This document shows positions 1 through 64,000 of a stretch of DNA of 64,000 nucleotides, piece after piece. This DNA is from a virus. The stretch's first letter is position 1, and every line of letters begins with the position of its first letter. Below the pieces are notes generated by a model. It worked only from the letters and a program-made list of their open reading frames with translations. It had not been told where the DNA came from and ran no database searches. The translations under genes were made by a program, and so were the position numbers. The stretch is from positions 1-64,000 of the IMG/VR virus record IMGVR_UViG_3300030388_001525; one strand, given 5' to 3'.

Positions 1-1331
1 TAAACATAAACTTTTCCCGCCACTACAGTTGTTGATCCAACATTAATTTTTTCTCCTTGACTTGAGTAATCTACGCTCCCTGTTACATTAAGCAATGTGT
101 TACTTGCCCATGTTCCTGCCGTAACTCTACCTGTTTCTGTTATTTGACTTTGGTCTAAACCTATTGTTCCTGTGCTTGTTATTGTCCCTCCTGTTATAGC
201 TCCTGATGTAGCTACAGAAGTTACTGATCCACCGCCGCTTGCATTTAAAGTAATTGTAGAATTACTACTTTGATTTACAGTAAAAGATCCTCCCCCCGTC
301 AATCCTGTTCCTGGATTAATTGTTATAGTAGCATTATTTGCGGCTGAAGGTATGGTTGGAAAAGTTGTTAAATCACCTTCTCCGTTTATATATTCTTCTG
401 TTTCTCCTTGAAAACTTATAGCTAATGTTCCTGAAGACGTTACAGGTGTTCCTGTAATTTGCAAAGCATCTCCCGCCGCAGACAATGCTACACTTGTTAC
501 GCCTGAAGATGTAACATAATTACTATTATTAGTCCATTGACTAATATTACCGCTTTTGTTTGTAAAAGTTTGTGTATTACTTGCTGTAGTAGTACCAGTA
601 TTAGTTGTATAACCAGCTCCGTTAGTTAATTGATTATTATCAGTTATGGAGTTAGTAAACGTAACAGTTTCATTAGATGATTGATTTAATGTAATTGTAC
701 CTCCTCCCCCTAAACCTGTTCCTGCTGTAAATGTAATTGTTGCATTATTTGCAGTGGGAGGTATAGTTGGAAAGGTTTCTAAATTACCATCTCCTGTTAT
801 ATACTGACTACCAGAACCTACCACATCTATAGCGATAGTTCCAGAACCTGTTACTGGAGAACTACCTACACTAAAAGCATTTCCTGTATGAGACACTCCT
901 ACACTTGTAACTGTTCCTGTTGTAGAGCTTGTTCCTGCACCTATATCACTTCTAACCTGAGCTGCTGTTCTTGAACTAATTACTCCACTTGAAGTAGTTA
1001 AAAATGTTGATGCAGTTGTGGCTATTGTAGGTACTGATCCTAATGTTACCGTACCTGCAAAAGTTGCATTGCGACCAGTGTAATCGCCATTATCTAAAGA
1101 TATTGAAGCAGTTGCTGTTCCACTTGCTTTAAATTGTATTAAATCAGGAGTGCTTTCATCGTAAAATATACCCCAAGTAGGGTATTGACCACTAACACGC
1201 CAAATTGTAGCATCTGGCGCTCCAGTAACTGCACCTTGTGATGGTCCAGTAAAAGAAGGAGCTGTTACATTACCTACAAAAGTTCCGCTTCCTGTTACCG
1301 CAAAGTCTGATAAAAAATTATTAGTAGCCAT
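1..1331 (-). CDS. Tail fibre / receptor-binding protein, N-terminal part (runs off the window edge)
   Basis: The frame is open from ATG at 1331 to base 1, giving 443 codons without a stop. The product is rich in Gly, Ser, Thr and Asn, as in phage fibres. It contains two copies of a module of about 88 residues, each with an FPTIP motif followed by ANNATITxxxGTGLxGGG. The visible end reads STTVVAGKVYV, which in many phage fibres precedes a C-terminal domain ending in a GYxxxxxxFxPDKTWV-type strand. That ending is exactly what lies at the other edge of the window (63808-64000), so I infer one gene across the ends. It is the last fibre gene of the leftward late block, 32 nt after another fibre gene. 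The exact role (receptor binding) is inferred from composition. Confidence 0.8.
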   Translation of the reverse strand, partial: MATNNFLSDFAVTGSGTFVGNVTAPSFTGPSQGAVTGAPDATIWRVSGQYPTWGIFYDESTPDLIQFKASGTATASISLDNGDYTGRNATFAGTVTLGSVPTIATTASTFLTTSSGVISSRTAAQVRSDIGAGTSSTTGTVTSVGVSHTGNAFSVGSSPVTGSGTIAIDVVGSGSQYITGDGNLETFPTIPPTANNATITFTAGTGLGGGGTITLNQSSNETVTFTNSITDNNQLTNGAGYTTNTGTTTASNTQTFTNKSGNISQWTNNSNYVTSSGVTSVALSAAGDALQITGTPVTSSGTLAISFQGETEEYINGEGDLTTFPTIPSAANNATITINPGTGLTGGGSFTVNQSSNSTITLNASGGGSVTSVATSGAITGGTITSTGTIGLDQSQITETGRVTAGTWASNTLLNVTGSVDYSSQGEKINVGSTTVVAGKVYV

Positions 1332-1363: not shown

Positions 1364-3877
1364 TTAAGATACTTTTTGTATATAAACTTTAGCTCCGTTA
1401 TTTGCGATTGGTGTGTTAGTTAGAATTCTTACGTTTGTTGCAGATGTTCTTTGTATTTCAGGAAATATTTGAGCATAGTTGTTTAGTATGTCTACAACTT
1501 GAACTATTACATCTTGTCCTAAAGAATGAGTTACATCTATTTGAGTTAAAGTTCCATTACCAATAGTTGCTACACCAGATAAATCTGCTACACATACATC
1601 TACTGCTGCACAAAAATCACTTACTTGTGAAGCTGTAATATTAATGTCTTGTTCACCTATTGAAGTAACTTGACCTGCAGAGTTTGTTGTTAAAGTAACA
1701 GTTTTAGCAGATGACCCTTGATTAGAAGCAGCCGCTCCATTGTCTAACGATATTGCTCCCCCTGCAGTTACATTTATATGTCCTGCTGTTGGAACACTAA
1801 CAAGTCCTACTGTTGTAGTTGTTGCTATGTCAATATTTGCTTGTACTTCTACAAAATCTGATTGTACAGAAGATCCTACAGCAGCAGCTGTAGTAGCAAT
1901 TACTTGATCACCAATTGATAAAGGTTCAGAAGCATTTCCAAAGAAATTACCCGCTACTGTTACAACGTAGAAATCACCGACAGCAATTGCTACTCTTCCC
2001 GAACCACTTGTTAGGTTTCCACCACCTACAATAGCACCAGTTGAAGCATTAAATCCTCCTTTAAATTCTAATAAACCTACTACAGCAGCATTTAACTGAT
2101 TTAAATTCACTGCACTTGTTCCTGCTGAACCAGCTGGTATTGTAAGTTGTCCTGTAATAGTTGCTGTTGTTCCAACTGTTAAAGATCCAGCTAAAGAAAT
2201 ACTATCGTCAAGATTTATTGTTAAATCATCTGTAGCTCCCGCAACAGTTGCAATATTTGTACCACCTATAAAAGTAGCTGTATTTCCATTTGTCACAGAT
2301 TGAGCAGAACCACTGTCTCCAGCTAAATTCCAAGAATCCATTGCTCCTGTACCTCCCGAGTAACTTATTGTTACAGCTCCACTTGAAGCTGAAACAGCTA
2401 TAGGTGATGTGCCTGCTAAAGATGTTACACCATCATTTGTTATTGTTACAGCACCAGTTGCTCCACTTACACTTATGCCTGTTCCTGCTACATTTGAAGT
2501 AACACCATCATTTGTTATTGTTAAAACATCTGTTGCACTTACCGCTGTAGTAATACCCGTCCCTCCTGTCGCTGTTACTGTATTTCCAGATGCAATAGTT
2601 TGTGATCCTGTATCGCCAGTCAAAGTCCATCCTGTATATGTTCCTGGTATTGCTGAAATAAGTTTAAATGTGTTATCACCAGCTAAATAAGTTGTTGCAT
2701 CTTTAGTACCTGTTGCAGATAAATCTAAAGTAACTGTATTAGTAGCACTAACTACACCTGCTACAAATGTTCCTCCTGCAATATCTACAGTTTCACCATT
2801 AGATACTGTTTGATTTGAACCAGAGTCAGATGATAAAATAAAAGAAGTCATTGTTCCAGCTCCACCATCAGAAGCCGAAGTAATTCTACCTTGTGCATCA
2901 ACTGTAATATTTGCAGAAGTATAAGTAGCTGCTGTTACAGCTGTATTGTCAAGTTTAATAGTTAAAATGTCTGTTGCAGATGCTGTAGTTGTAATTGCTG
3001 TTCCTCCTGTAAAGGTTGCATTATTACCGTTAGTAATAGATTGAGATCCTGTGTCACCAACTAAATTCCAACTACTCATAGATCCAGTTCCTCCTGTATA
3101 TGCAATAACAACACCATCAGTTCCGTTTCCAGTTGTAGAAATGTTAGATCCTGCAAGTACAGACAAAGTATCTGCATTAGCAATTGTAGAGTTTGTACCA
3201 GCTGAGCCTGCTAATGTAAAACTACTCATAGATCCAGTTCCTCCAGTGTATGAAATAGTAACTGACCCCGTTGAAGTGTCAACTGCTATAGGAGATGTTC
3301 CTGCTATTTCAGTTACACCTGAATTTGTAATAGTTGTTCCAGTTGCATTATTTTGCGTTGTAATACCTGTTCCACCCGCTATATCAACTGTGAGTCCATT
3401 AGTAACTGTAAGGCTTGTGCCTGAATCTGCTGTTAATATCCATGAAGACATTGTTCCTGGAGCAGAGCCACCAGTTACTGATGTAACATGGCCTTGAGCG
3501 TTTGTAATTATTTGACTTGGATATGCAAATGTTCCCGCTGTACCAAAACTATCATGATTAACAGTTAAAGTATTTCCTGAACGTGTTGAAGATAAAGCTG
3601 TACCACCCGCTATATCAACAGTAATTCCGTCAGTTATAACAGCATCTCCACCACTATCACCCGTCATAGTCCAACTTGACATTGAACCTGAACTTGTACC
3701 TACGGCAACCCAATTGTTTGAACCTGTATGATATTTCAGAACATTTGTATCTGTTCTATAGATTAGTTGTCCTTCTCCTGTTAATCCAGAAGGATCAGAT
3801 GTTTCATTATCAACTTTGAAGCTGATAAGCTCAGAGTTTTGGAGGTTGATGTTTGCAAAAAACTTTATATCTGCCAT
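1364..3877 (-). CDS. Repetitive tail fibre protein (837 aa)
   Basis: A fibre-like protein dominated by Gly, Ser, Thr, Ala and Val. Seven copies of a module of about 33 residues start near residues 64, 141, 215, 265, 341, 412 and 511. Their consensus is GxMxSWxLxGDSGS, then TVxNGxTVxxxGGTxI. Such repeats usually form beta-stranded trimeric shafts. The N-terminus (MADIKFFANINLQ) is the likely virion-attachment part. The last ~60 residues, from TQIDVTHSLGQ, resemble the C-terminus of the next gene (3896-4630) and may be a shared tip or trimerisation domain. The start is ATG at 3877, preceded by a T/A-rich gap. Antisense frames inside this gene are shadows of the repeats. Confidence 0.8.
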   Translation of the reverse strand: MADIKFFANINLQNSELISFKVDNETSDPSGLTGEGQLIYRTDTNVLKYHTGSNNWVAVGTSSGSMSSWTMTGDSGGDAVITDGITVDIAGGTALSSTRSGNTLTVNHDSFGTAGTFAYPSQIITNAQGHVTSVTGGSAPGTMSSWILTADSGTSLTVTNGLTVDIAGGTGITTQNNATGTTITNSGVTEIAGTSPIAVDTSTGSVTISYTGGTGSMSSFTLAGSAGTNSTIANADTLSVLAGSNISTTGNGTDGVVIAYTGGTGSMSSWNLVGDTGSQSITNGNNATFTGGTAITTTASATDILTIKLDNTAVTAATYTSANITVDAQGRITSASDGGAGTMTSFILSSDSGSNQTVSNGETVDIAGGTFVAGVVSATNTVTLDLSATGTKDATTYLAGDNTFKLISAIPGTYTGWTLTGDTGSQTIASGNTVTATGGTGITTAVSATDVLTITNDGVTSNVAGTGISVSGATGAVTITNDGVTSLAGTSPIAVSASSGAVTISYSGGTGAMDSWNLAGDSGSAQSVTNGNTATFIGGTNIATVAGATDDLTINLDDSISLAGSLTVGTTATITGQLTIPAGSAGTSAVNLNQLNAAVVGLLEFKGGFNASTGAIVGGGNLTSGSGRVAIAVGDFYVVTVAGNFFGNASEPLSIGDQVIATTAAAVGSSVQSDFVEVQANIDIATTTTVGLVSVPTAGHINVTAGGAISLDNGAAASNQGSSAKTVTLTTNSAGQVTSIGEQDINITASQVSDFCAAVDVCVADLSGVATIGNGTLTQIDVTHSLGQDVIVQVVDILNNYAQIFPEIQRTSATNVRILTNTPIANNGAKVYIQKVS

Positions 3878-3895: not shown

Positions 3896-4630
3896 TTAAT
3901 TAAATATTGCTTGTCCTGTAAATTGACTATTAAATGTCAATGTACATTGATTTATACTGTTGTACTCTACTTCGCACTGCACTTCTTCTAAAGCTCCGTC
4001 TATGACAGATACTGCTGGAAATTTTCCTAAATCGTGATTAACAACAAAAGTTGCGTTAGATGGAGTTAAGTTTACAACTTTGTTTTTATCTCCTGAACCA
4101 CTTCCATAGTCCAGCAAAGATATAAAATAATCTTGATTCTGTTCGAAGCCCCCATTACCTGCTACAAAGGTTAAAACTATGTCATAAAAGTTTGGCTCTG
4201 TTCCTTTTTGCGTTGATGATACCCATGAAAAAATTCCCCATTTTGATATGTCAGAAGTTTTTGATATAATTACTGTAGAGCCAACTAAAGGAGCTGTATA
4301 CCATGAAGACAAATCTACATTAGGGCTTCCTACTTGCGATTTGCTAATTCTAAAGCCAGTTACTACTGAAAATTGAACAAGCGCACCTCGTTGTGGGTCA
4401 AATGTAATACTTCCAGGATTTCTTACTGTTTGTCCTGGAACAGTTGGATTTATAATTTGATAATAAAAACGTGGAACATCTAATTGTATACGTGCATCAA
4501 GATTTAAAAAATCTGCAACAGATTGAGCTGTAAAGTTTTTTGTAGCATTTAAAAAGCTGGCATCTGTACCAATCCACTTATCATCTGCTTTTACTACTAC
4601 TTGATCTACATATGTACTAATTCTTGCCAT
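3896..4630 (-). CDS. Putative tail fibre / tip protein (244 aa)
   Basis: Begins MARISTYVDQVVVKADDKWIG and has no membrane segment. The C-terminal region (NHDLGKFPAVSVID, later SINQCTLTFNSQFTGQAIFN) parallels the C-terminus of the 837-residue fibre: NH/TH-xLG, a V-x-V-D strand, an SxNxxxLTxN strand and a final hydrophobic strand. I infer a short fibre or cap sharing a terminal domain with its neighbour. It begins immediately after the stop of the holin-like gene (stop 4631, start 4630 reading outward), so the two are probably co-transcribed. Receptor binding is a guess; its position between fibre and lysis genes fits. Confidence 0.6.
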   Translation of the reverse strand: MARISTYVDQVVVKADDKWIGTDASFLNATKNFTAQSVADFLNLDARIQLDVPRFYYQIINPTVPGQTVRNPGSITFDPQRGALVQFSVVTGFRISKSQVGSPNVDLSSWYTAPLVGSTVIISKTSDISKWGIFSWVSSTQKGTEPNFYDIVLTFVAGNGGFEQNQDYFISLLDYGSGSGDKNKVVNLTPSNATFVVNHDLGKFPAVSVIDGALEEVQCEVEYNSINQCTLTFNSQFTGQAIFN

Positions 4631-9407: not shown

Positions 9408-9863
9408 TTGAGGAATAATAAACATACCCCATCACACAATTATTTAAAATACTGGAGAGTTATTAGATACTGGGCCAAGGCTAAATATGGCTTGACTACG
9501 CCAGATTTAGATATGATGTTCTTCTTGTATGGAGAAGACTATTTTAATAAAACTAAGTTTAAGGAATACGAAGAAGTTATGTCTTGGGATGTAAATAGAT
9601 TTGATTCTTTATTAAGTAATGGATGGATTACAGTGTGGAGAAGAAAAGCTGGTAAAGAAACAACATTATATCACCTTTCTTTTAAGGGAAAGAAAGCCAT
9701 AAACACTATATATAAAAAACTTAATGGTGAAGAGATTGGAGAATCACCTGATTACAATCCTTTGTTTAGAGTTAATGTAGGTTATATGGATAAAGTATAC
9801 CGAGATCAGATTTTAGAAATGAATAAATTTATAAAACTACAACGACATCTCTCTCTTGAATAA
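9408..9863 (+). CDS. Putative winged-helix (MarR-like) regulator, alone on the + strand
   Basis: 151 residues. The layout suits a winged-helix DNA-binding fold: KYWRVIRYWAKAKYGLTTPD as first helices, a helix starting DLDMMFFLYGEDYF, then VNRFDSLLSNGWITVWRRK and ETTLYHLSFKGKKAINTIY as recognition helix and wing. I recall similar proteins as conserved hypotheticals in marine phages. No ATG is in frame before residue 36, so the start is the TTG at 9408. It is the only + gene between 1 and 12259, and its end overlaps the groES end tail-to-tail by 35 bp. The position suggests a regulator of late transcription; this is inference. Confidence 0.6.
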   Translation: MRNNKHTPSHNYLKYWRVIRYWAKAKYGLTTPDLDMMFFLYGEDYFNKTKFKEYEEVMSWDVNRFDSLLSNGWITVWRRKAGKETTLYHLSFKGKKAINTIYKKLNGEEIGESPDYNPLFRVNVGYMDKVYRDQILEMNKFIKLQRHLSLE

Positions 9864-10086
9864 TAGTAACTGTTTCATTATTTAAAAGCATAGTGTGTCC
9901 TGCATTACGATCATAGTATACTAAATCATTTTCAGATATTATATCCACATTAGTACCTGGTGTAAGTATAATACCTTTCTTGTATCTAAAGTTATCCGCA
10001 TCTTCAGCTGACAAAAGAATACCTGAGTTAGTTTTTAATTCTTCTTCTACTGGTTTTATAACTATATATTTTCCTATTGCTTTCAT
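9829..10086 (-). CDS. groES: Co-chaperonin GroES-like protein
   Basis: 85 residues, slightly shorter than the usual 95-100 of bacterial GroES. The cpn10 barrel is recognisable: IGKYIVIKPVEEELKTNSG with the mobile-loop tripeptide in GILLS, then YKKGIILTPGT and DLVYYDRNAGHTMLLNNETV, ending IIQERDVVVVL. GroES caps the GroEL ring as a heptamer and closes the folding chamber. It follows groEL by one base on the same strand, the reverse of the usual bacterial groES-groEL order. T4 gp31 is the classical phage example of a co-chaperonin replacing GroES for capsid folding. Confidence 0.85.
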   Translation of the reverse strand: MKAIGKYIVIKPVEEELKTNSGILLSAEDADNFRYKKGIILTPGTNVDIISENDLVYYDRNAGHTMLLNNETVTIIQERDVVVVL

Positions 10087-10087
10087 A

Positions 10088-11713
10088 TTATTCTTCGTTA
10101 GCTCTTCTATGTGTTATTATTGCATTTGTACTTAAAATAGTAGTAGCTACTGATACTGCATTAGTAAAGGCATGCTTTGTAACTTTCAGAGGATCTATCA
10201 CCCCCATTTTAAACATGTCTCCATAAACTTCATTCTTAACGTCGTAACCTACATTATTAATTCCATCTATTTTATAAATCTCTAATTTTTCATCACTCAT
10301 AACTTCGTCTGGATTCATTCCAGCATTTATTAATATTTGTTCTAAAGGAGCTTTTAACGCTTTAGATAAAATTAATGATGCAACAAGTTCATTATGTAAA
10401 TCAGAATAATCATATGGTTTTTTTAAACTATCATGTAAAGTCCATAAGGCTAATCCTCCTCCTGCAACAATTCCTTCTTGTAAAGCACTGCGCACAGCGC
10501 ATACCGAGTCATCGACTCGGTCAAATTTTTCTTTTTGTTCTACATCTGAGTTACCACCAACGTATATGCAACCTATTCCTCCCGCTAAACTTGCTATACG
10601 TTCATTGATAAAAACTCGAGATGCTGTGTCTTTAGTATTTTTTTGCTGAACCTTTAACTCTTCTATTCTTTTTTGTATCTCATCAGAAATATCTGTCTCT
10701 TTTATAATAACAGTTTCGCTTTGCCCAACAATAATCTTGTCTGCTTTTCCTAAATCTTTAGGAGTTATTAAACTTAAGTCATCTCCAGTCTTTTCAGAAT
10801 AGTATTTAGCACCAACTGCAAGAGCTATGTCTTGCATTAACTCGTGCTGCTTGTATCCAAACTGTGGTGGTAAAATATTACAGAACTTTAAACCATTACG
10901 AACAACATTAGCAGCCAGGGTATTTATTACATTGGTTGTACATGTTCCGATAATTAAAAGCTTCTCATTATTATTAATGACATTTTTTAATACGTTCTCT
11001 AATTGTAAGATATTACTAATCTCACTATCACATACTAATATCTTTACATCTTCAAGAATACATTCATCCTTCTTTTGATTATTAATAAATAGATTAGAAG
11101 TATACCCTCTGTTTATTTTTATACCGTTTGTAACCTCTGCATAGGTATCCGAAGATTGCGAACGCTCAACTGTAACAACTCCATCTTTACCTACCTTATT
11201 GTAAGCATCAGTTATAATTTTTCCTATTGTCTTGTCGTTGTTAGCAGATATTGTTGCTACATCCAACAGCTTTTTTTTAGAAATTTTTTGTGAGTTTACT
11301 TTTAAATCTTTTAATATACTTTCTTTAAGTGTATTGATGTGTCTAATTACCTCAGTAATATTATGCGTATCCTTTAACAACTCTTGACCTGCATTAACTA
11401 TAGCCTCCGTCAAAACAATAGCTGTAGTTGTACCATCACCAGCTGAGTTAGCCGTTCTATTAGCAGCATCCTTCATCATTTGAATTGCTAAATTTTCTAC
11501 AGGGTCGTTTAACTCTATTGACCTTGCAACAGTAACTCCGTCTTTTGTTATAGTAATACTATTTGTATGTTGAGGTGATTCTATTAAAACTGTTTTACCT
11601 CGCGGGCCAAGTGTACTTTTGACTGCTTTAGAAATTGTAGTTATTCCTTTAATTAACTTTTGTCTTCCATGATCATCGAAGCAGATGTCTTTTGGAATGT
11701 ATCCTGAACTCAT
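10088..11713 (-). CDS. groEL: Chaperonin GroEL
   Basis: 541 residues, full family length. Hallmarks: STLGPRGKTVLI (33-44), KDGVTVARSIEL (57-68), the nucleotide loop AGDGTTTAIVL (91-101, D93 matching E. coli Asp87), VDDSVCAVRSALQEG with the Asp matching Asp398, and GIVAGGGLALW. The product is a double-ring ATPase that folds proteins in a closed chamber. The C-terminus ends RRANEE and lacks the GGM-rich tail of bacterial GroEL. The central apical domain is diverged from host-type sequences. Together with groES it forms a self-contained chaperonin operon, with a TATATTTG octamer 25 nt before the ATG. Few phages carry their own GroEL. Confidence 0.95.
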   Translation of the reverse strand: MSSGYIPKDICFDDHGRQKLIKGITTISKAVKSTLGPRGKTVLIESPQHTNSITITKDGVTVARSIELNDPVENLAIQMMKDAANRTANSAGDGTTTAIVLTEAIVNAGQELLKDTHNITEVIRHINTLKESILKDLKVNSQKISKKKLLDVATISANNDKTIGKIITDAYNKVGKDGVVTVERSQSSDTYAEVTNGIKINRGYTSNLFINNQKKDECILEDVKILVCDSEISNILQLENVLKNVINNNEKLLIIGTCTTNVINTLAANVVRNGLKFCNILPPQFGYKQHELMQDIALAVGAKYYSEKTGDDLSLITPKDLGKADKIIVGQSETVIIKETDISDEIQKRIEELKVQQKNTKDTASRVFINERIASLAGGIGCIYVGGNSDVEQKEKFDRVDDSVCAVRSALQEGIVAGGGLALWTLHDSLKKPYDYSDLHNELVASLILSKALKAPLEQILINAGMNPDEVMSDEKLEIYKIDGINNVGYDVKNEVYGDMFKMGVIDPLKVTKHAFTNAVSVATTILSTNAIITHRRANEE

Positions 11714-22301: not shown

Positions 22302-24713
22302 ATGGAAATAACCATCTTTAAAGACATCAAAAATACCTCACAACCATTTTACCGAGAGGTCGAAGTAGTATTAACAAGAATACAACAAGGAGCAACAAAA
22401 GATTTAGTAAAAAGTATAAGAAAAGAAAAAGACAAGTCAAAAAGAAATATATTAAAGCAATCATTACCAGCTATATGTTTTAGTGGACAATTTACAAAAA
22501 GAAATGATGCATCATTAACTGAACATTCTGGACTTATATGTTTAGACTTTGATGGATACACGACAACAAAAGATTTATTGCAAGAAAAAGAAAAGATATC
22601 CAAAGATGGTTATGTATATTCTGTTTTTATAAGTCCAAGTGGTAAAGGACTTAAAGTATTAATTAAAATACCAAAGGATAGTCTTAACCATAAAAATTAT
22701 TTTTATTCTTTAGAAAAACATTTTAATTCAGATTACTTTGACAGAACATCTAAAAACATATCTCGAGTATGTTATGAATCTTACGATCCTTTAATATTTA
22801 TAAATCCACAATCAAGCTTGTGGGATAAAATTATAGAGCAAGAATATACAGAAGTATCTAAAACACAAGGAGTTGTTACTATCCCAGTAAGTGATGAGAA
22901 TAAAATTGTAGAGATTTTAGTTAAGTGGTGGGAGAAAAAATATGGAATGATAGATGGTGAAAGAAATAATAACGTATACATTTTAGCTTCAGCTTTTAAT
23001 GACTTTGGAGTTAATCTAAACCTGGCTAAATATGTAATGAGTTCTTTTTCCTCTAAAGACTTTCCTTCATCAGAAGTTGATAGAACTATAAAATCTGCAT
23101 ATGCTCAACAACAAAACTTTGGTACGAAGTTTTATGAAGACGAAGAAAAAGTAAATATGATTAAGCATAAGCTTTTAAGTGGTGTAACAAAAAAAGAAAT
23201 TAGATCTCAGTTAGTTGATGACAATATTGAGGTCTCAGTAATAGAAAATGTCATTAATAAATTAGAAGAAGAACATAGCAATAATATATTTTGGACTAAA
23301 AACGAAAAAGGCGTAATTAAAATAGTCCATATATTATTTAAAAATTTCTTGGAAGACAATGGATTTTATAAATTTAATCCTGAAGGAAGTAAAAACTACG
23401 TATTTGTAAGGGTGACTAATAATTTAATAGACCACACCTCTGAAAAGGAAATTAAAGATTATATTTTAAATTATCTTTTAGAAATTGATGATTACACTAT
23501 TTATAATTATTTTGCTGAACATACAAGATACTTTAGAGAAGAGTTTTTAACCTTACTATCTTCAATAAATGTTTTCTTTATAGAGGACACCAAAGAAACT
23601 GCATATTTATATTATAGAAATTGTGCAGTATCAATTAAATATAATCAAATAGAAACTATAGATTACATTGACTTAGGTGGTTATGTGTGGAAGGATCATG
23701 TAATAAACAGAGATTTTGATTTATGTGATGTAGGCACTTGTGATTACAAAACATTTATTTCCCATATATGTGGTTCTGATTCATCACGAATAAAGTCTAT
23801 GGAAACAACGATAGGATATATGTTGCATGGATGGAAAAATTTAGCATATTGCCCAGCAGTGATTTTAAATGATGAGGTAATAACTGACAATCCAGAAGGA
23901 GGTACAGGTAAAGGTTTGTTTATGAATGCACTAAGTCATATGAAAAAGTTAGTATTTATTGATGGTAAGTCTTTTAATTTTGAAAGATCATTTGCATATC
24001 AAACTGTAAGTGCCGATACTCAGATTTTATGTTTTGATGATGTGAAAAAATACTTTGACTTTGAAAGGTTGTTTTCTGTTATTACGGAAGGGCTAACCCT
24101 TGAGAAGAAAAATCGTGATGCGATCAAGATACCATTCAATAAATCTCCTAAAATAGCTATAACTACCAACTATGCTATAAGTGGAGAAGGTACAAGTTTT
24201 GAGAGAAGAAAATGGGAGTTAGAGTTGGCTCAACATTACACAAAAGAATATACGCCTTTAGTTGAGTTTGGTAGACTTATGTTTGGAGAATGGAACGATG
24301 AAGAGTGGTGTCAATTTGACAACTATATGATTAAGAATTTACAAAACTATCTTGAAGTAGGATTATTAAAAAGTGAATTTGTTAATTTAAAAATTCGAAA
24401 ACTATCTGCTAAAACTGGACATGATTTTATAGAGTGGTGTGGACTATTAGGCGAGACTGCATATCAAGATAAGCTTAAATTTAATGTAAAGGTTTATAAA
24501 AATGATTTATACAATGATTTTGTTGAAGAAAACCCAGACAGATCCTCACGAGGTAAAATGACAATTAGTAGAACAAGATTTTATAAATGGCTTACATCTT
24601 ATTCAGTATACAAGTATAGTTGTGAACCACAAGAGGGCAGAGATTCAGTTGGTAAGTGGATTAAATTTGTTAATATTCATAGCAAGGAGTCAAACGGAAA
24701 GTTAAAACTATGA
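22302..24713 (+). CDS. Primase-helicase fusion (VirE/BT4734-type AEP primase + SF3 helicase)
   Basis: 803 residues. Residues ~45-170 resemble the BT4734/VirE N-terminal primase domain: HSGLICLDFDG with the metal-binding D82 and D84, FISPSGKGLKVLI (110-121) and NISRVCYESYDP. Residues ~200-270 form a PriCT-like helical domain. Residues ~480-680 are an SF3/D5-type helicase with Walker A GGTGKG (533-538), Walker B ILCFDD (575-580) and the sensor KIAITTNYAIS. It should unwind and prime the phage origin. No phage polymerase is encoded in the window, so a host polymerase would extend. It overlaps the DEAH helicase by 4 nt. Confidence 0.85.
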   Translation: MEITIFKDIKNTSQPFYREVEVVLTRIQQGATKDLVKSIRKEKDKSKRNILKQSLPAICFSGQFTKRNDASLTEHSGLICLDFDGYTTTKDLLQEKEKISKDGYVYSVFISPSGKGLKVLIKIPKDSLNHKNYFYSLEKHFNSDYFDRTSKNISRVCYESYDPLIFINPQSSLWDKIIEQEYTEVSKTQGVVTIPVSDENKIVEILVKWWEKKYGMIDGERNNNVYILASAFNDFGVNLNLAKYVMSSFSSKDFPSSEVDRTIKSAYAQQQNFGTKFYEDEEKVNMIKHKLLSGVTKKEIRSQLVDDNIEVSVIENVINKLEEEHSNNIFWTKNEKGVIKIVHILFKNFLEDNGFYKFNPEGSKNYVFVRVTNNLIDHTSEKEIKDYILNYLLEIDDYTIYNYFAEHTRYFREEFLTLLSSINVFFIEDTKETAYLYYRNCAVSIKYNQIETIDYIDLGGYVWKDHVINRDFDLCDVGTCDYKTFISHICGSDSSRIKSMETTIGYMLHGWKNLAYCPAVILNDEVITDNPEGGTGKGLFMNALSHMKKLVFIDGKSFNFERSFAYQTVSADTQILCFDDVKKYFDFERLFSVITEGLTLEKKNRDAIKIPFNKSPKIAITTNYAISGEGTSFERRKWELELAQHYTKEYTPLVEFGRLMFGEWNDEEWCQFDNYMIKNLQNYLEVGLLKSEFVNLKIRKLSAKTGHDFIEWCGLLGETAYQDKLKFNVKVYKNDLYNDFVEENPDRSSRGKMTISRTRFYKWLTSYSVYKYSCEPQEGRDSVGKWIKFVNIHSKESNGKLKL

Positions 24714-25957
24714 AGTTAAGACCATATCAAAAGGAGTTAGTAAAAAAAGGACTGCAAGTTTTAAAAGACCATAGGTTTATATATTTAGCTATGGAAGTAA
24801 GAACTGGTAAAACTATAACCTCTTTAAAAATGTTTAGTCATTTATGGAACAGAGGGTATGAAAAGCCCAAGCGTTTATTGTTTGTTACAAAAAAGAAAGC
24901 GATATCCAGTATTGAAAAAGATTACGATGCATCTGAATCAAACTATGATATAATGATAACTAATTATGAATCTTTACATAAAGTTCCATTAAAAGGTTGG
25001 GATGGAGTAATTTTAGATGAAGCTCATTCTATGGGGGCATTTCCTAAACCAAGTAAAAGAGCAAAGCTGGTAAGAGATATTTTATTTAAATCAAAACCAT
25101 ATGTTATTTTATTATCAGGAACTCCAACTCCAGAATCATATAGTCAGATGTATCATCAAGTGTATGGTATTATAAATAATCCTTTTAAAAGTTTTAAAAA
25201 CTTTTATGCTTTCAGTAAAAAATATATTAATGTTAAACAGAAAAAGTTAGGTGGGATGATTATTAACGATTATAGTCAAGGATCAGAACTTATTTTACAC
25301 CACATGAAGCCTTTTGTTTTGTCTTTTACACAAAAGTTAGCTGGTTTTGAATCAACAATAGATGAAGAAATTTTATATGTGTCTTTACAATCTCAAACTA
25401 CAAAACTCATTCAGAGATTAAAGAAGAATTTAGTAATTGAGGGCAAGGATGAGGTTATCTTGGCTGACACTGCCGTTAAGTTAATGATGAAAATTCATCA
25501 ACTTTGTTCTGGAACTGTCAAGTTTGAAAGTGGAAATGGTATGGTTGTAGATTTTAACAAAGCTCATTTTATATTTAATAAATTTAAAGAACGTAAAATT
25601 GCTATTTTTTACAAATTTACCAATGAACTTAAAGCTTTAAAAGAGGTTTTTAAAGATAATTTGACTACAGATTTAGAAGAGTTTGATTCTACAGATAAAA
25701 CAATTGCTTTACAAATTGTGAGTGGTCGTGAAGGAATAAGTTTAAAAAATGCAGAGTGTTTAGTCTATTATAATATAGATTTTTCTGCTACATCTTACTG
25801 GCAATCAAGAGATAGAATGACAACTCAAACCCGAAAGTATAATAAAATTTATTGGATTTTTTCTTCTGGAGGTATTGAGGATAAAATATACAAAGCAGTA
25901 GTAAAGAAAAAAGATTATACATTGAATCATTTTAAAAGAGATTTATTAAGTTTGTAA
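24710..25957 (+). CDS. SNF2/DEAH-type helicase
   Basis: 415 residues, compact for SF2. Motif I is EVRTGKT (29-35), motif II LDEAH (102-106), motif III LLSGTPTP (134-141). The second RecA fold has LQIVSGREGISLKNA and the motif VI region YWQSRDRMTTQTRKY. RPYQKELV at the N-terminus is a Q-motif-like start. The protein is a dsDNA translocase or helicase, likely for replication restart or recombination, since a VRR-NUC nuclease follows after one base. The same helicase-nuclease pair is common in phages. Confidence 0.85.
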   Translation: MKLRPYQKELVKKGLQVLKDHRFIYLAMEVRTGKTITSLKMFSHLWNRGYEKPKRLLFVTKKKAISSIEKDYDASESNYDIMITNYESLHKVPLKGWDGVILDEAHSMGAFPKPSKRAKLVRDILFKSKPYVILLSGTPTPESYSQMYHQVYGIINNPFKSFKNFYAFSKKYINVKQKKLGGMIINDYSQGSELILHHMKPFVLSFTQKLAGFESTIDEEILYVSLQSQTTKLIQRLKKNLVIEGKDEVILADTAVKLMMKIHQLCSGTVKFESGNGMVVDFNKAHFIFNKFKERKIAIFYKFTNELKALKEVFKDNLTTDLEEFDSTDKTIALQIVSGREGISLKNAECLVYYNIDFSATSYWQSRDRMTTQTRKYNKIYWIFSSGGIEDKIYKAVVKKKDYTLNHFKRDLLSL

Positions 25958-55877: not shown

Positions 55878-58313
55878 CTATCTTGGGTCAAACTCAGCTA
55901 AATCAAACCCATCTAAACTATCTTCGTTTGATTCAAAGTTTATTGAAGGTAAATTTCTTTTTCTCTGTTCAATCATTGCTGACTGTTGAGATGCTTGTAA
56001 TTTAGTTCTCGTGTCTTTAGAATCCTCCCTTTCAGTTTCTCTTTGTTGTAATTGAGATTGTTCAATTCCTTTTAACTGCATTTGATAATTAAATTCAGTC
56101 TCCATTAATTGTTTTTTCAATTCTGCCTCTGCTTTTAACTTTTCTATTTCAAAAGAAATATCTGCTTGTCTGTATTGCATTTTTGCTTGAGACTCCATTT
56201 GAATTCTTTGCATTTCCATTTGAGCTGTAGCTTGCTGAGCTTGAATTTGCATTTGAGCTTTAATTTGCTGTTGTTGCTGCATTTGCACTTGTTCGGCTTC
56301 TTGTTTTTGTTTTCTTTTTAGCTTCAACAATTGATTAGCCATTTTAATGTTTTTTAACTCTCTAACATCAATAGCATCTTCTAAGTTTATATCTTGTTTT
56401 GATAAAGCCATTTGTATATTAGCTTCTAACATTGCTTTTTGCTCTTCATCTGGTGCTAATTCAATAAAAATTCCAAAGTCATGTAGATATAGGTTTTTAA
56501 TATCTTCTAATAATTTTACATTATATTTTCCAATCTGCATTGCAAATTGATCTGCAAAATCAGAATACTCTAAAATATCAGCTGTTCTAATTGACATTGC
56601 TTCAGCTAAAGTTTTAGTTATATATAAACTTGCTTGAAGTATATGTCTTGTAGCTGTATTAGAATTTAAAGCTGCAAGTTTTTGAACACCAACTAATGAA
56701 TTTGGATCTGGCGTACTACCATCTCGAGCTTCGTTTAATCCAGTGCATTGTCTAATCATATCTAAATAATGATTATAGTTTCCAATAAGCATTTGCATTT
56801 TATTAGCTCCACTGGAAGCAGTCAACTGCTGTATAGGAACTCTTGCATTATTAAATTCTCCATCTTGAGTAAAACTTCTACCAACTACACTACCTGTTTG
56901 AAAGTAAAGCCTTAATGCATCTTCAGGATTATAAGCGTTTCCTGTTCCTAAGTCAACTTCATTTAACCCATCAGCATCAATAAATACACCATCTGGAACT
57001 ACTCTTGAAACTACTTGTTGAATTTTTAAATGAGTCATTTGAATCAAATCAGCAAAAGGAATCATTCTTCTAACTAAAGATTCAATATTTCCCTTGTACA
57101 CACGCGGCGCGCATGCGATGTAATTAGGTAAAGCATATTGAGATGCAGAATTAGGTCTTACCATATTCTTAGCCATCTCCCACTTTAACATAATGTTAGT
57201 TCCCATAACCATTACACCTTCATACCACACATCTATTTTTCTTTCAACTTTTTCAAACTTCCCCTCATCCATCATTTCTTGTGGTGGGTTGAATTGGTCA
57301 TCTTTTTCTACAACTTTAAAATTACCATCAGGTGTTTCTTTTTTCTTATATACAAAACTATTTGTAGTTTTATAATTAAAATACATTAATGTACACGTGT
57401 CTCTGGAAAACATACTGTTCTCATAAAACTGAGCAACATTAAAGTAGTCATACCATGCTTGACTATACTGACTTATTTCAGCCATATCATCAGTTGTTAT
57501 GTCTGGATCAATCTTAACTAATTCTGTTAAAGGAACAGTTTTAATTTCTCCCCAATAAAAACAATCTTTAAAATAAGGATCTTCAGTGTAACTATAAACT
57601 ACATTTGCTGGGTCTACATAATCAATTACAACTCCTTGACCAAGCTGAAATTGATGACGTGTAACTCCAACACCTATTGTAGCTATGTCATAATCAACTC
57701 TTTTTCTTATATCGTTATAATGATTTTGAGCAAACAAAGTGTTGATTGCTTCTTCTTCTGCTATCTCAATAGCTGGTTTGTACTTCATGTTTATATACAA
57801 AGCCATTTCTTCATCCGTTTCTGGAACTTCTTCATCAGGCATTGTAAATGCATTAACCCCAAAGTCTTCTTGTATTTGCCTAAACAATGGAGCAGCAATC
57901 ATATTATCTTGAACTAATTGTTGAAACTCACCTCTACGTTCAGCTGACAATGCATCTTCTGCATATGCTTTAACATCAAATAATCTGTCAGACATTCCAT
58001 TTACTACAATGTCTACAAATTTAGGTATGATAGCTATTGGTGTCCAATCTAAATTTAAATAACTTAAATCTCCATCTATAGCTAATTCATTTTTATATTT
58101 AGCTACAGACTGTTCACCTCGTGCATACAAACGTAGTTTGTTGAATTCTTGCCACTGGCTGTAGAATCTGCACTGATTACTGTCTTTTCTAAACCACTCG
58201 TATTGTATAGCCTGACCTATTTGTAAACCATACTCAAGTGTTTGTTTAGTGGCATCCGAAACAAATTGATCTGGAAAGGCAGTAGACTGTAAATTTATTG
58301 TTACATCTCTCAT
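55878..58313 (-). CDS. Portal protein
   Basis: 811 residues, the size of crAss-like and P22-type portals. Motifs include GVGVTRHQFQLGQGVVIDYV, DPANVVYSYTEDPYFKDCFY and GLNEARDGSTPDPNSLVGVQ with the clamp-region helices. The C-terminus is a Gln-rich coiled coil (KQEAEQVQMQQQQQIKAQMQ), the barrel/crown seen in P22. The dodecamer forms the DNA channel for packaging and ejection. It overlaps the terminase gene by 4 nt. Confidence 0.85.
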   Translation of the reverse strand: MRDVTINLQSTAFPDQFVSDATKQTLEYGLQIGQAIQYEWFRKDSNQCRFYSQWQEFNKLRLYARGEQSVAKYKNELAIDGDLSYLNLDWTPIAIIPKFVDIVVNGMSDRLFDVKAYAEDALSAERRGEFQQLVQDNMIAAPLFRQIQEDFGVNAFTMPDEEVPETDEEMALYINMKYKPAIEIAEEEAINTLFAQNHYNDIRKRVDYDIATIGVGVTRHQFQLGQGVVIDYVDPANVVYSYTEDPYFKDCFYWGEIKTVPLTELVKIDPDITTDDMAEISQYSQAWYDYFNVAQFYENSMFSRDTCTLMYFNYKTTNSFVYKKKETPDGNFKVVEKDDQFNPPQEMMDEGKFEKVERKIDVWYEGVMVMGTNIMLKWEMAKNMVRPNSASQYALPNYIACAPRVYKGNIESLVRRMIPFADLIQMTHLKIQQVVSRVVPDGVFIDADGLNEVDLGTGNAYNPEDALRLYFQTGSVVGRSFTQDGEFNNARVPIQQLTASSGANKMQMLIGNYNHYLDMIRQCTGLNEARDGSTPDPNSLVGVQKLAALNSNTATRHILQASLYITKTLAEAMSIRTADILEYSDFADQFAMQIGKYNVKLLEDIKNLYLHDFGIFIELAPDEEQKAMLEANIQMALSKQDINLEDAIDVRELKNIKMANQLLKLKRKQKQEAEQVQMQQQQQIKAQMQIQAQQATAQMEMQRIQMESQAKMQYRQADISFEIEKLKAEAELKKQLMETEFNYQMQLKGIEQSQLQQRETEREDSKDTRTKLQASQQSAMIEQRKRNLPSINFESNEDSLDGFDLAEFDPR

Positions 58314-60553
58314 CTATTAAGTAATTGACTTACTGAACTTTTATTATTATATCTTGCAAAGTTAATGCTTATTTTTGATTGTTTTTGAACTGGAGTATAC
58401 ATATGTTTTTGATTAGCCATAATAGCAAGTCCAGAACTAATTGATGCATCAAATTTAGTTCTATTACTAATATCAAATCTTGCCCAATCTGACAATGTTC
58501 GTTCAAAATACATTTCTCCCATATCTTCTTTTGTTCTATAATCTCCAGTTAAATCTAACCCTATATGTTTTTCTATATAAGACTCTATAGCTGAAGCGTG
58601 AGACTGTTTAACATCTTCAGATGTGTTAGGTATTCCTCCTAACTCTTTTTCTGTTTTAGACAACTTATTATATCTTTTATCTGGTCTGTTCAGACAGAAT
58701 CCTCTATACCCACGATTTTTAAAATGATATAATAAACGTGGTTTATTATTCTCACACAAAATAGGCATTCCATAAAAAACACAAGCCATCAAAACTTCTT
58801 CAAAAAATATTTCTGCTGTTTGTGGTCGTGCAATGTATTCTAAAAAAAAATTATTAGAAGGAGCATCATCCATATTAAATTTAGTCATACCATGTAAAGA
58901 ACCATTAGACCCTTTACCTACAACAACACCAGATATATCATAAGAATCACAACCAAATGAACCTACATGTTCATTACCAGGATATTTAGTATTATTCTTT
59001 TCTATTACCCTGTTTTGCAATCCTTTTCTTGGTGTCCAAGTTACAAAAAATCTTCCGTTTCTATTTGGACTCCAAATTACTTTAGAATCTTTAATTCCAT
59101 CTTGCCATCTAAATGAACCTTGAGTAACATAATGTGCTTTAATTAATGAATCGTTATAATCAATTTGTTGATATATTTTAGTAAGATTAAATAAAGATTG
59201 TTTACTTTCATCTCTAAATGCATGAGATTCAGTACGAGGGAATTGTCTATAAAATTCATTTAATGCATCAGGATCTTGTGATAAAGAATCAACTTCGTTT
59301 TGCCAATAATCGATTGCTCCAACATTAATAGATTCACCATCGATACCTACACATGATTTTTTAGGTGTGTAAAAAACTGGCATTCCAAACTTATCTATGT
59401 ATCCTTCAAAATTCCATTCCATAGGAACAAATAATTTGTATAAACCTGATTTTGTTTGGCCATTTTGATTTCGGTTAGTGCAATCAGAATCTTCAAATAA
59501 TTTTTTAAAATTATTCCCTCCTTTATCTAATGCATTGGATGTTGAACCCATTAAACACTTTCCAATTATTTTACTTCCTAAACGTAAACAAGTTTTAGTA
59601 ACACGCCAATTGTTTAAAATGTTATCTGGTCTTTCCCACTTACCACTTTCATCGTGCAATAGAAGTTGTAATTTTTCACCATCATAACTGTTATCTCCTG
59701 TGTTTTTCCAGTCAATTGTAGTGTCTAAACCCTCTAACTCCTCTTCACCTAAATCATACATATTTTTTTTAGTAATCTTAGACGCAGGAACTCTATATGC
59801 TAATTCTGTTTTAGGCTTATCCATACCATCTTGAATAGGTTTAAAAAAGAAAGGATAATTATTTGATATTGGGACAACCTTATCTGTAAACATTTTTTTT
59901 GCATCAGCTCCAGTTTTAGAGAGTATACCTATACGTGAATCTTTAGATATAGTAGCTTTGTTTACTCCTTCACACGAAGCCATAAATGAAAAGCCAGAAC
60001 GTCTAATTTTTAAATAACACATTCCAAAACTTCTTTTGTCTAACTTACAGGCTTCCCAAAACAAATAAAATATTCGATTTGCTTCTCTAAAATCTGGATT
60101 ACCTATGTCAATTTTAGTCCATTGCAAATACATGTAATGTGTTCCCGTCAAATATGTGGTAATTCCATTGTTTAAAAACCAATGTCCTTGCTCTCTTCTA
60201 TCAAACTCTTGTTCTATGTAATCAACCCATTTAGATTTAAATGTAGCAGATGTTTCGTGCCACTGAAAAATACTTTGAACTCTACTTAATTCTTTAGGTA
60301 GTTTTTCGTTTGACCATGTTTGATTTTCATTACTGAGATTGGATTTAAGAATTGGAGTTTTAGGTAACGCGACATTTAATCCACTTATATTATAAATATC
60401 TCCTATTGTACCATCTTTAGAAATAATGACAATGTCATACTTTTCATTATATCCTGGTAACCATGATCTTGCTCGGTTTTTATTAGTTCTGACCGATTTA
60501 GATACTAAATCATTTTTTAAAGTATAAATTTTATTTTGACCTTGACTCTGCAA
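58310..60553 (-). CDS. terL: Terminase large subunit
   Basis: 747 residues. Motor part: KIRRSGFSFMASCEGVNKAT holds a deviant Walker A (RRSGFSF) and QLLLHDESGKWERPDNI a Walker B (LLHDE). KCLMGSTSNALDKGGNNF is the coupling motif. The nuclease part starts at SFGCDSYDISG and has ILCENNKPRLLYHFKNRGY. The deviant Walker A without GKS/T is also found in crAss-like terminases. It drives DNA into the prohead and cuts concatemers. It overlaps the small subunit candidate by 23 nt. Confidence 0.85.
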   Translation of the reverse strand: MQSQGQNKIYTLKNDLVSKSVRTNKNRARSWLPGYNEKYDIVIISKDGTIGDIYNISGLNVALPKTPILKSNLSNENQTWSNEKLPKELSRVQSIFQWHETSATFKSKWVDYIEQEFDRREQGHWFLNNGITTYLTGTHYMYLQWTKIDIGNPDFREANRIFYLFWEACKLDKRSFGMCYLKIRRSGFSFMASCEGVNKATISKDSRIGILSKTGADAKKMFTDKVVPISNNYPFFFKPIQDGMDKPKTELAYRVPASKITKKNMYDLGEEELEGLDTTIDWKNTGDNSYDGEKLQLLLHDESGKWERPDNILNNWRVTKTCLRLGSKIIGKCLMGSTSNALDKGGNNFKKLFEDSDCTNRNQNGQTKSGLYKLFVPMEWNFEGYIDKFGMPVFYTPKKSCVGIDGESINVGAIDYWQNEVDSLSQDPDALNEFYRQFPRTESHAFRDESKQSLFNLTKIYQQIDYNDSLIKAHYVTQGSFRWQDGIKDSKVIWSPNRNGRFFVTWTPRKGLQNRVIEKNNTKYPGNEHVGSFGCDSYDISGVVVGKGSNGSLHGMTKFNMDDAPSNNFFLEYIARPQTAEIFFEEVLMACVFYGMPILCENNKPRLLYHFKNRGYRGFCLNRPDKRYNKLSKTEKELGGIPNTSEDVKQSHASAIESYIEKHIGLDLTGDYRTKEDMGEMYFERTLSDWARFDISNRTKFDASISSGLAIMANQKHMYTPVQKQSKISINFARYNNKSSVSQLLNR

Positions 60554-61597: not shown

Positions 61598-62116
61598 TTA
61601 AAATGTTGAAAGTGTAAGAACTCGGTATCTAAGATTAACTTTTAAAATACCATCTCCTACAGTAGCGTTAACTCCTGCATTTACTAAAGTAACACTTGTA
61701 TTAATTTCGCAATTCACATCGTCAGAAGACATGTGTTGCGCTTTGTCTGCAACAGTATTTAAAAAAGGTGTACTTAAAGTCGCCCAAGAAGCAGCTCCTT
61801 GTTTTACAGAAACTGAATTTGGAAAGTCATACGCTGTAACACCAGCGTCTAAAAAAGTAAATACGCTCAATACATCAATAACTTTGCCAGCTCCTGGTGC
61901 AGCTATTAAAGTAATAGGTGTTCCAGTCAAAGCTTTTAATTGTGCGGCAGAAATCGCTATAGTAACATTATTAAACTCAACTTGAAATAAATTGCTCAAA
62001 GCAGTTAATGTACAAGTTTTTGTTGCTAAATTGCTATCGTTATCAGTTAAAACAAAATAATCTGTTAGTACTGGAGCTATAGCAGGATAAGCGGCTTTGT
62101 TACTGATTTTTGACAT
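61598..62116 (-). CDS. Virion structural protein (172 aa)
   Basis: Begins MSKISNKAAYPAIAPVLTDY and contains FVLTDNDSNLATKTCTLTAL, a start common in phage head-fibre or tail-tip proteins. The second part is beta-stranded (SAAQLKALTGTPITLIAAPG, INTSVTLVNAGVNATVGDGI). No membrane segment. It lies between the coiled-coil protein and small conserved genes ahead of terL. Head fibre or decoration is a reasonable guess. Confidence 0.6.
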   Translation of the reverse strand: MSKISNKAAYPAIAPVLTDYFVLTDNDSNLATKTCTLTALSNLFQVEFNNVTIAISAAQLKALTGTPITLIAAPGAGKVIDVLSVFTFLDAGVTAYDFPNSVSVKQGAASWATLSTPFLNTVADKAQHMSSDDVNCEINTSVTLVNAGVNATVGDGILKVNLRYRVLTLSTF

Positions 62117-62391
62117 TATACTTTTTTTAAATTTTTGTTTTCAACTTCTTCTTTATCTGCTTCAGCCTCTTCTTTAGATTTTACTTCTCCAGTTTTTAAA
62201 TTTATTACTGAGTCTTGTCCAAACTCCTCAATTAATTTAGCTTCTAATTCTGCAAATTTTACTTGAAACTGCTCAAGTTGTTTTACCATTAAAGATTGCT
62301 GAAAAGTAATATCACCTAAAGATAATTTAGCTTTATTAAACTCTCCTTGTAACCCTTGTACTTCATCTAATTGAATTTTACTTAATTTCAT
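62116..62391 (-). CDS. Coiled-coil protein (91 aa)
   Basis: Long heptad pattern: MKLSKIQLDEVQGLQGEFNK, LGDITFQQSLMVKQLEQFQV, FAELEAKLIEEFGQDSVINL, then an acidic tail KSKEEAEADKEEVENKN. Such short coiled coils in phage are assembly or chaperone adaptors. It overlaps the next gene by one base and has a TATCTTTG octamer exactly 25 nt before its ATG. Confidence 0.55.
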   Translation of the reverse strand: MKLSKIQLDEVQGLQGEFNKAKLSLGDITFQQSLMVKQLEQFQVKFAELEAKLIEEFGQDSVINLKTGEVKSKEEAEADKEEVENKNLKKV

Positions 62392-62439: not shown

Positions 62440-63225
62440 TTATACTATGCCATTGACATCGTCAGCTTGAGGCGTTTCAGTTCCTTGTAAATTAATTGAA
62501 TTTACTTGCCAGAGAGTAAACGCAGAAGCAGCTGCTGCGGTAATTCCATTTATAGTATTTCCATATCCAGCTACCTCATAAACTAATTGTAATTTGGGCA
62601 TAAAACTTCCAGAAGTATTAAAATAAACACCATTGGTGGCTGAAGTGCTTGAACCTGGTGAATCTTCAATATAATCAAAATTATAATTAACTAAAGCACA
62701 AACTAATTGTTTAGGGTTTGAATTGTTAATTTTACCAATAGCTGTAGAGTTTAATTGAAAATCATTTTCTCCTGAATTACCTGTACCCGCATTCCATGAA
62801 GAAAGAGCATCACTACCTCTTAAGTCAGATGAGTACTGATCTTCAAAAGCCGCTGTACTAAAATCGTTAACACTTAAAGCTGAACCTCCGTTAGTTCCAA
62901 AAGCTTTGTTTGATTCTGTTAATGTTACTGCTTGAGTTCCTGCACTACCAACTCCATTAACCGTAAAAGTTCCTGCACTTACTACAGCTCCTAAAGGCAA
63001 TGAACTACAATCAAAGTAAAAAAATGATCTCGTACATGAAAAAGTTTCGTTACTTCCTCTGTCAACAAATGATTGCGCTCTTATAGCTATAGATTGATTA
63101 ACACCTGAACTTACAGTAGTTCCTGTACTTGAATTAATTACATCATCCCAGTCTTGAGCAGAACTACCTGTTTTTAAAACAGACCCTTGTCTATTTGACG
63201 TTACGTTAATTGTAATTTCAGCCAT
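62440..63225 (-). CDS. Virion structural protein, beta-sandwich type (261 aa)
   Basis: Begins MAEITINVTSNRQGSVLKTG. SFVDRGSNETFSCTRSFFYF, DCSSLPLGAVVSAGTFTVNG and PKLQLVYEVAG give a jelly-roll-like order (a DNRF/TGF-like sandwich) found in fibre and carbohydrate-binding domains. The last part is fibre-like. No catalytic motif. It lies between the methyltransferase and the coiled-coil gene. Confidence 0.55.
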   Translation of the reverse strand: MAEITINVTSNRQGSVLKTGSSAQDWDDVINSSTGTTVSSGVNQSIAIRAQSFVDRGSNETFSCTRSFFYFDCSSLPLGAVVSAGTFTVNGVGSAGTQAVTLTESNKAFGTNGGSALSVNDFSTAAFEDQYSSDLRGSDALSSWNAGTGNSGENDFQLNSTAIGKINNSNPKQLVCALVNYNFDYIEDSPGSSTSATNGVYFNTSGSFMPKLQLVYEVAGYGNTINGITAAAASAFTLWQVNSINLQGTETPQADDVNGIV

Positions 63226-63227
63226 AA

Positions 63228-63797
63228 TTAAAATTGTTTTTTTGGTAAATAATATTCTGAATAATTAAAATACAGATTAGGATTAGGTTTAACTGGTATA
63301 ACATCATAACTATCAGCTTTAATATTTAATTGATTGTCTTTTTTATTATAGCTATTCCACCAAGTTGCTAAACCATTTTTTTTCATCAAATATTTAATTA
63401 TATCTTTAAACTCTGCACCGTTTTTATTATAGCCCCACGTGTCAAAAAATAATCCATCATATGCACTTAAAAAATTTCTTACATCATACCAATCTCCTAA
63501 AATAATATTTACATTAGGTTTGTCTTCAGCCCATTCTTGTGCTTTATTATATACTTGAGGATGACACTCTACAATAGTATGTGATTTAATATTATTAGCT
63601 TGTATATAATCTGCGCTTATCCCCATACCAAAACCTATTTCTAATATATCCCCACCATTTGAACAAATATAATCAGCATGAGCTTTCATAATTGGTTTCT
63701 CCCAATCCATCATTATATAATGAGTTTCTTGTGTGTCTGGATCTATATAGTATATAGAATTTTCAGTAAATGTAAGATTACGATTTATAAATTCCAT
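63228..63797 (-). CDS. SAM-dependent methyltransferase (guanidinoacetate/RMT2-like)
   Basis: I place the start at ATG 63797 (MEFINRNLTFTENSIYYIDP); a longer frame beginning upstream overlaps the fibre gene and lacks an A-rich leader. IMMDWEKPIMKAHADYICSN and GGDILEIGFGMGISADYI (motif I) followed by HTIVECHPQVYNKAQEWA match class I enzymes of the guanidinoacetate / arginine N-methyltransferase (RMT2) type. LGDWYDV and FFDTWGYN are the later motifs. It stands alone among virion genes, so it may modify a structural protein or host target. The substrate is unknown. Confidence 0.75.
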   Translation of the reverse strand: MEFINRNLTFTENSIYYIDPDTQETHYIMMDWEKPIMKAHADYICSNGGDILEIGFGMGISADYIQANNIKSHTIVECHPQVYNKAQEWAEDKPNVNIILGDWYDVRNFLSAYDGLFFDTWGYNKNGAEFKDIIKYLMKKNGLATWWNSYNKKDNQLNIKADSYDVIPVKPNPNLYFNYSEYYLPKKQF

Positions 63798-63807
63798 AAT
63801 AAAAGTT

Positions 63808-64000
63808 TTATGGGCTTGCAATAAGAACCCAAGTCTTATCTGGATCAAAATAAAATATTGTAGTACTGTATGCATAACCAACTATTCTTGCATATCCATC
63901 TGTAGGTACTGTAGTTGTTATATTACCGCTTGTTGTTAAATAAGCAGCTTGACCATTAGCAGTAACTGATTGCGCACCATTTACTAAGCCTTGAACAATC
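63808..64000 (-). CDS. Tail fibre C-terminal part (runs off the window edge)
   Basis: An open frame reads from 64000 to the stop at 63808-63810: QGLVNGAQSVTANGQAAYLT, then PTDGYARIVGYAYSTT and FYFDPDKTWVLIASP. This is the usual end of phage fibres whose preceding part reads VVAGKVYV, the sequence at the left edge (base 1). I infer the same gene, about 443 + 64 codons plus a short missing piece. There are 10 bases between its stop and the methyltransferase ATG. Confidence 0.75.
   Translation of the reverse strand, partial: IVQGLVNGAQSVTANGQAAYLTTSGNITTTVPTDGYARIVGYAYSTTIFYFDPDKTWVLIASP

Follow-up and report, generated by a model that had tools for sequence, protein, structure and literature searches.

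The question raised by this locus is whether two truncated reading frames, one at each edge of a 64,000-nucleotide stretch of viral DNA (the window), are pieces of a single fibre gene on a circular genome. The window comprises positions 1-64000 of the 65,376-bp IMG/VR virus record IMGVR_UViG_3300030388_001525 and leaves 1,376 bases beyond it. It is a marine phage genome, probably most of it, and the hosts of the relatives indicate that the host is probably a member of the Bacteroidota. At the left edge, the minus-strand frame starting at 1331 stays open for 443 codons as far as base 3, where it ends in VVAGKVYV and is followed by 'ta' at bases 2-1. At the right edge, the minus-strand frame entering at 64000 runs to a stop at 63808 and has a fibre-type C-terminal end, GYARIVGYAYSTTIFYFDPDKTWVLIASP. 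The original prediction had described both frames in this way, and both were seen. It had further proposed that the edges are pieces of one fibre gene, with 30-60 residues between the two motifs, on a circular genome only slightly longer than 64 kb.

The last 1,376 bases of the record ruled out a direct join with this spacing. The right-edge frame stays open through the record end and amounts to 522 aa, about 459 of them outside the window. The 207 bases at the end of the record (65376-65170) correspond to window 974-768 at 95% identity and in the same reading frame, and the first 78 nt of this shared module are identical between the record end and window 897-974. Since the right frame extends so far and part of it is homologous to the left piece, the two edges do not follow directly on each other and the simple join is wrong. 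The ends of the record share no exact terminal repeat of 6 bases or more; the 78-nt exact overlap between an internal site and the end is found instead. IMG/VR classes the record as linear, which, like the missing repeat, speaks against a closed map. The features discussed here are listed in Table 1.

Table 1. Features at the edges of the window and in the neighbouring genes (positions in the window)
Feature	Position	Strand	Basis or comparison
Fibre frame at the left edge, 443 aa, no stop before base 1; carries the N-terminus of the fibre slot and the second-variant arm	3..1331	-	1-834 99.88% identical to G001/L081
Shared fibre module, repeated with 95% identity at record 65170-65376	768..974	-	Sequence comparison
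Proposed closing overlap, 78 nt, same sequence as the record's final 78 nt	897..974	-	Natural ORF across the join in L010
Right-edge fibre, C-terminal end (type M; the frame has 522 aa in the record)	63808..64000	-	AF2 model, structure comparison with VIA
Methyltransferase, relative of guanidinoacetate N-methyltransferase; E33 codon 63699-63701, D119 codon 63441-63443	63231..63797	-	
Carbohydrate-binding-module-like (CBM-like) protein, 261 aa; R56 codon 63058-63060	62440..63225	-	
P0003, 837-aa repetitive fibre-like protein; in relatives, next to the fibre slot on its upstream side	1364..3877	-	
244-aa protein, left-side syntenic marker	3896..4630	-	
91-aa protein, right-side syntenic marker	62116..62391	-	
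Terminase large subunit, used for placing the phage	58310..60553	-	

The phage was placed by its terminase. The nearest complete genome is Caudoviricetes sp. ctfjg026 (MW202828), whose terminase is 69.9% identical and which has portal and GroEL genes, a similar late gene order and a circular map, as which it was deposited. The Flavobacterium phages elemo (Elemovirus) have a terminase that is about 44.6% identical, and Cellulophaga phages are also near. Across the Elemovirus records listed, each of about 60 kb, the coordinates of the terminase gene vary from record to record, as would result from circular maps whose starting points were chosen arbitrarily.

The junction was then analysed in the relatives by the gene content between the 244-aa marker on the left and a 74-aa marker on the right. 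Of 163 loci examined, 16 contained both markers in order, and in all 16 a single long ORF of 692-1574 aa came right after the P0003-like ORF and was followed by small genes. Two of these loci (L051 and L052) are near copies, the P0003-like gene of L046 was recognised by its place only, and in L025 the match to the 74-aa marker is partial and more genes follow. L011 and L016 have another long ORF later, beyond the 91-aa gene. The 66,825-bp record G002 is collinear with the window and continues across its junction; its own break lies near window 5.3-5.7 kb. The first 336 bp of G002 are repeated with 97.6% identity at its very end and at no other place in that record. The gene order across the junction is shared by the 16 spanning loci and G002. 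Together, the spanning loci, the end overlap of G002, the circular MW202828 and the scattered terminase coordinates in Elemovirus uphold the central claim: on a circular map the two edges lie next to each other, within one fibre-gene slot. What did not hold is that they are consecutive pieces with 30-60 residues between them. As a statement about the genome map, the finding is partly right and ordinary. In the 63,077-bp record G003 (L093 at its start, and L096), the first 159 bases recur at 94% close to the other end, as if the record were nearly closed.

We consider it probable that the map is a circle of about 64.4 kb which the assembler cut inside one mosaic fibre gene, the left edge being a second variant common to another phage. 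The genome would close at the shared module, giving a circle of 65,376 less 974 bases, which agrees with the predicted length slightly above 64 kb. The closed fibre would be about 641 aa long (left part 119 residues, right part 522), and the second variant would comprise bases 1 to about 896, either as a real allele from recent exchange or as a chimeric assembly spur. Judged by alignment, a natural example of the proposed join is the single 675-aa ORF of L010, which matches window 1078-975, then the module, then record 65169-65067. The proposed joined sequence is 92.8% identical to L010 over 414 bp, and the left arm ceases matching soon after the module. However, a later part of L010 is similar to the left arm (window 498-228); left and right arms can therefore occur in one gene, which counts against the proposed join. 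In a collection from which near-identical records may be missing, exact-pattern scans found no other contig with the same N-terminus and one contig with the identical module (G004), but no independent copy of the closed gene.

The second variant was recognised in the record IMGVR_UViG_3300031687_000170 (G001, L081), which is identical to window 834-1 save one base (99.88% over 834 bp). Beyond the point corresponding to base 1, G001 continues with KVYVYSAGAW...NPDNTYITLS and a stop, followed by a 295-aa LamG-like gene, a label given from sequence appearance, since PHROGs offered only a weak family without function. This is the only known continuation of the left edge, and with its different C-terminus it speaks against the reading of the two edges as consecutive. 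The DNA of G001 is only 80% identical to the window in the terminase and 75% in the portal gene, while the left arm is 99.9% identical; G001 is therefore another phage.

Downstream of the fibre gene, the relatives carry one of two cassettes or other small genes. Cassette M consists of C-terminus M, the methyltransferase and the CBM-like protein, and cassette L of C-terminus L and the LamG-like protein. The methyltransferase and the LamG-like gene were together in 0/163 loci. In L018 and L020, DNA identity to the window is 89-96% in cassette M, 73-83% in the four genes that come next and 83-87% in the terminase. The cassette thus appears to have moved as a block. The shared modules in the fibre gene are probably crossover points, at which co-occurring phages would exchange the C-terminal part of the fibre and, with it, the genes that follow. 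Host-recognition modules are exchanged between distant phages, for example the Alteromonas phages A5 and V22, where a fibre and its accessory gene likewise move as a unit (PMC10579305). The partner gene is described there as a fibre chaperone (PMC10579305), whereas here it is the methyltransferase with the CBM-like protein, or the LamG-like protein. In 8 of 14 relatives' records (G001-G014) an end lies inside this same fibre gene, so assemblies tend to break there. The case is a warning that phage assemblies break at fibre genes and that two variants can become mixed there.

That the left arm is known to continue into C-terminus L and LamG would also fit a circular genome with two tandem fibre genes, of which the left would have C-terminus L and LamG, and the right C-terminus M and the methyltransferase. 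On this view, the module would be nothing more than a paralogous repeat. We regard this arrangement as unlikely, since the 16 spanning loci show only one long ORF between the P0003-like gene and the small genes, and both cassettes occur together in none of the 163 loci. More doubtful still is one long fibre gene of at least 965 aa that contains both arms and the module twice, which would be the predicted gene with a much longer middle. Although ORFs of 692-1574 aa exist at this place and the 936-aa frame of G004 has two module-like stretches, the left arm stops at the start of the C-terminal domain that in G001 precedes the stop.

The left arm also bears on the idea that the record is a fully chimeric linear fragment whose edges are unrelated pieces of different phages, because its bases 1-834 are 99.88% identical to a contig with core genes only 75-80% alike in DNA. 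Against this, the flanking gene order on both sides matches that of the junction-spanning relatives, and we rate full chimerism as the least likely of these readings. The circular map cut inside one mosaic fibre gene is the reading that we keep.

The edge question itself settles the genome map only. The cassette found there matters more, for the arginine modification that it predicts; apart from one lone methyltransferase, it was not found in the GenBank phage records searched. When 50,697 GenBank phage records were searched with the right-edge fibre, the CBM-like protein of the window and four other queries, no match was obtained, and two methyltransferase queries gave a single one, LR745206. 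Many uncultured viral contigs carry the fibre, the methyltransferase resembling guanidinoacetate N-methyltransferase (GAMT) and the CBM-like protein as one module. A search of the open-access literature found no paper on such a phage enzyme or arginine modification.

By sequence, the only strong PDB family for the phage methyltransferase is guanidinoacetate N-methyltransferase (1xcj, 1p1b; phmmer E 2.6e-16, profile E 6e-20), and the matches in Pfam and NCBIfam remained below the cut-offs. The likeness extends over the methyltransferase core and includes the equivalents of E45 and D134 of the rat enzyme, which we take to bind the guanidino group. E33, aligned with rat E45, is kept in 65/65 unique sequences covering it (two more have a gap), and D119, aligned with rat D134, in 67/67. 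In contrast to guanidinoacetate N-methyltransferase, the protein here is phage-borne, has 189 aa and is encoded beside a fibre gene, and guanidinoacetate is probably not its substrate. The family is presumably also related to the fungal protein arginine methyltransferase RMT2.

A family scan of viral contigs gave 159 methyltransferase relatives, of which 80 were kept; with two in cellular genome assemblies this makes 82 loci, several of them near copies of one another. An upstream ORF is present in 78/82 loci and ends in the same fibre C-terminal domain by HMM in 72 of these 78. Among the others, the upstream ORFs of L199, L200 and L231 are alike by eye only, and those of L241, L248 and L258 are not alike. 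Wherever there is a downstream gene it belongs to the CBM-like family (81/81), that is, in all loci but L264. The terminase of 25 long contigs bearing the module is clearly related to that of the window in 16, a doubtful match in one and without a match in 8. The module is thus not tied to one backbone. In the uncultured phage LR745206 (634,780 bp) the same methyltransferase follows a different, 762-aa fibre-like ORF, and neither the fibre C-terminal domain nor the CBM-like protein was found beside it. The Chlamydiia locus L264 also has the methyltransferase without these two partners. Both loci speak against a strict partnership.

The AlphaFold2 model of the CBM-like protein (pLDDT 85.2) resembles the chondroitin sulfate CBM 8wab_B (Z 14.4, 3.2 A over 166 residues) and the alginate CBM 7vbo (Z 12.7, 3.2 A over 162 residues). 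In the model the protein thus has the fold of polysaccharide-binding CBMs, a fold that alone shows no function. Pfam CBM96 is matched weakly by 5/43 family members (E <= 0.01, best 1.2e-4) and not by the window protein. While the predicted fold is like that of 8wab and 7vbo, the protein here is encoded by a separate phage gene. Among 395 cellular genomes of the order, the CBM-like family was found in two, once on a known phage contig and once as a weak partial match (E 5.9e-5).

The predicted model places R56 in the hairpin turn that connects strand 43-54 to strand 60-72. This residue was Arg in 63/63 copies beside a methyltransferase and in 0/7 copies without one in the first set. After a further scan the nonredundant counts, with two rows at contig ends set aside, were 65/65 for the linked and 0/19 for the unlinked copies. 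All 19 unlinked copies have Lys at the R56 column or the next and no Arg in the turn, and Lys is found at this turn in no linked copy. Of seven columns that are at least 90% conserved in the linked copies, R56 alone is absent from all unlinked ones; R66 is Arg in 84/84 CBM-like copies. In the 19 unlinked copies the fibre C-terminus lies directly upstream of the CBM-like gene (gaps -52 to 11). A methyltransferase elsewhere in the 24 records without a linked one was not found in a search run without a control; when 5 of these 24 records were searched again, none was found and 8/8 positive controls matched.

A tree of the CBM-like copies was built with the columns of the R56 turn omitted. Arg/Lys switches at R56 number three on the best tree and two to three in bootstraps, and one is forced by well-supported branches. 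Since the tree needs few changes, the R56 correlation rests on one to three independent events, and a pair test of R56 against the methyltransferase had too few pairs for significance. Nevertheless, the CBM-like proteins in the set are as little as 20% identical to that of the window, and the invariance of the apparently exposed R56 among such divergent proteins is itself telling.

Gene linkage, enzyme family, kept catalytic residues, predicted fold and co-variation point to a reading that we advance tentatively, with somewhat less than even confidence. The phage GAMT-like enzyme may N-methylate R56 of the neighbouring CBM-like virion protein and so tune host recognition, whereas lineages without the enzyme carry lysine. 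The CBM-like protein would sit on the virion and bind a host polysaccharide, and methylation of R56 would tune or protect this contact. If true, one arginine of a phage adhesin would carry a defined methyl mark, set by a phage enzyme whose family is known for acting on guanidinoacetate.

The fibre C-terminal domain was analysed for a similar signal, but no Arg discriminating methyltransferase linkage was found in 55 linked and 19 unlinked rows; the one Arg that is invariant in the domain (profile column 90) occurs in linked and unlinked rows alike. The AF2 model of the last 160 aa (pLDDT 82.5) gave the best match to 8qsy_MJ (VIA; Z 10.0, 3.1 A over 110), and the 14 highest-ranking entries (lowest Z 5.9) all come from phage capsid shells, portal vertices or head fibres. 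With Foldseek, every E was above 0.001, and Phage_cement_2 was matched by 4/41 members of the C-terminal family. The predicted fold of this domain (window 63808-64000, in the record to about 64290) would be like that of cement proteins and of the phi29 head-fibre base, and by this likeness the right-edge fibre may be a head fibre instead of a tail fibre.

Elsewhere in the window, a GroEL-like protein is encoded at 10088-11713 and adjoins an 85-aa ORF at 9829-10086; the homologous ORFs are likewise adjacent in L016. An 803-aa primase-like protein at 22302-24713 combines a BT4734-like N-terminal domain with DUF5906 and a weak PriCT-1 match, and is adjoined by a helicase at 24710-25957.
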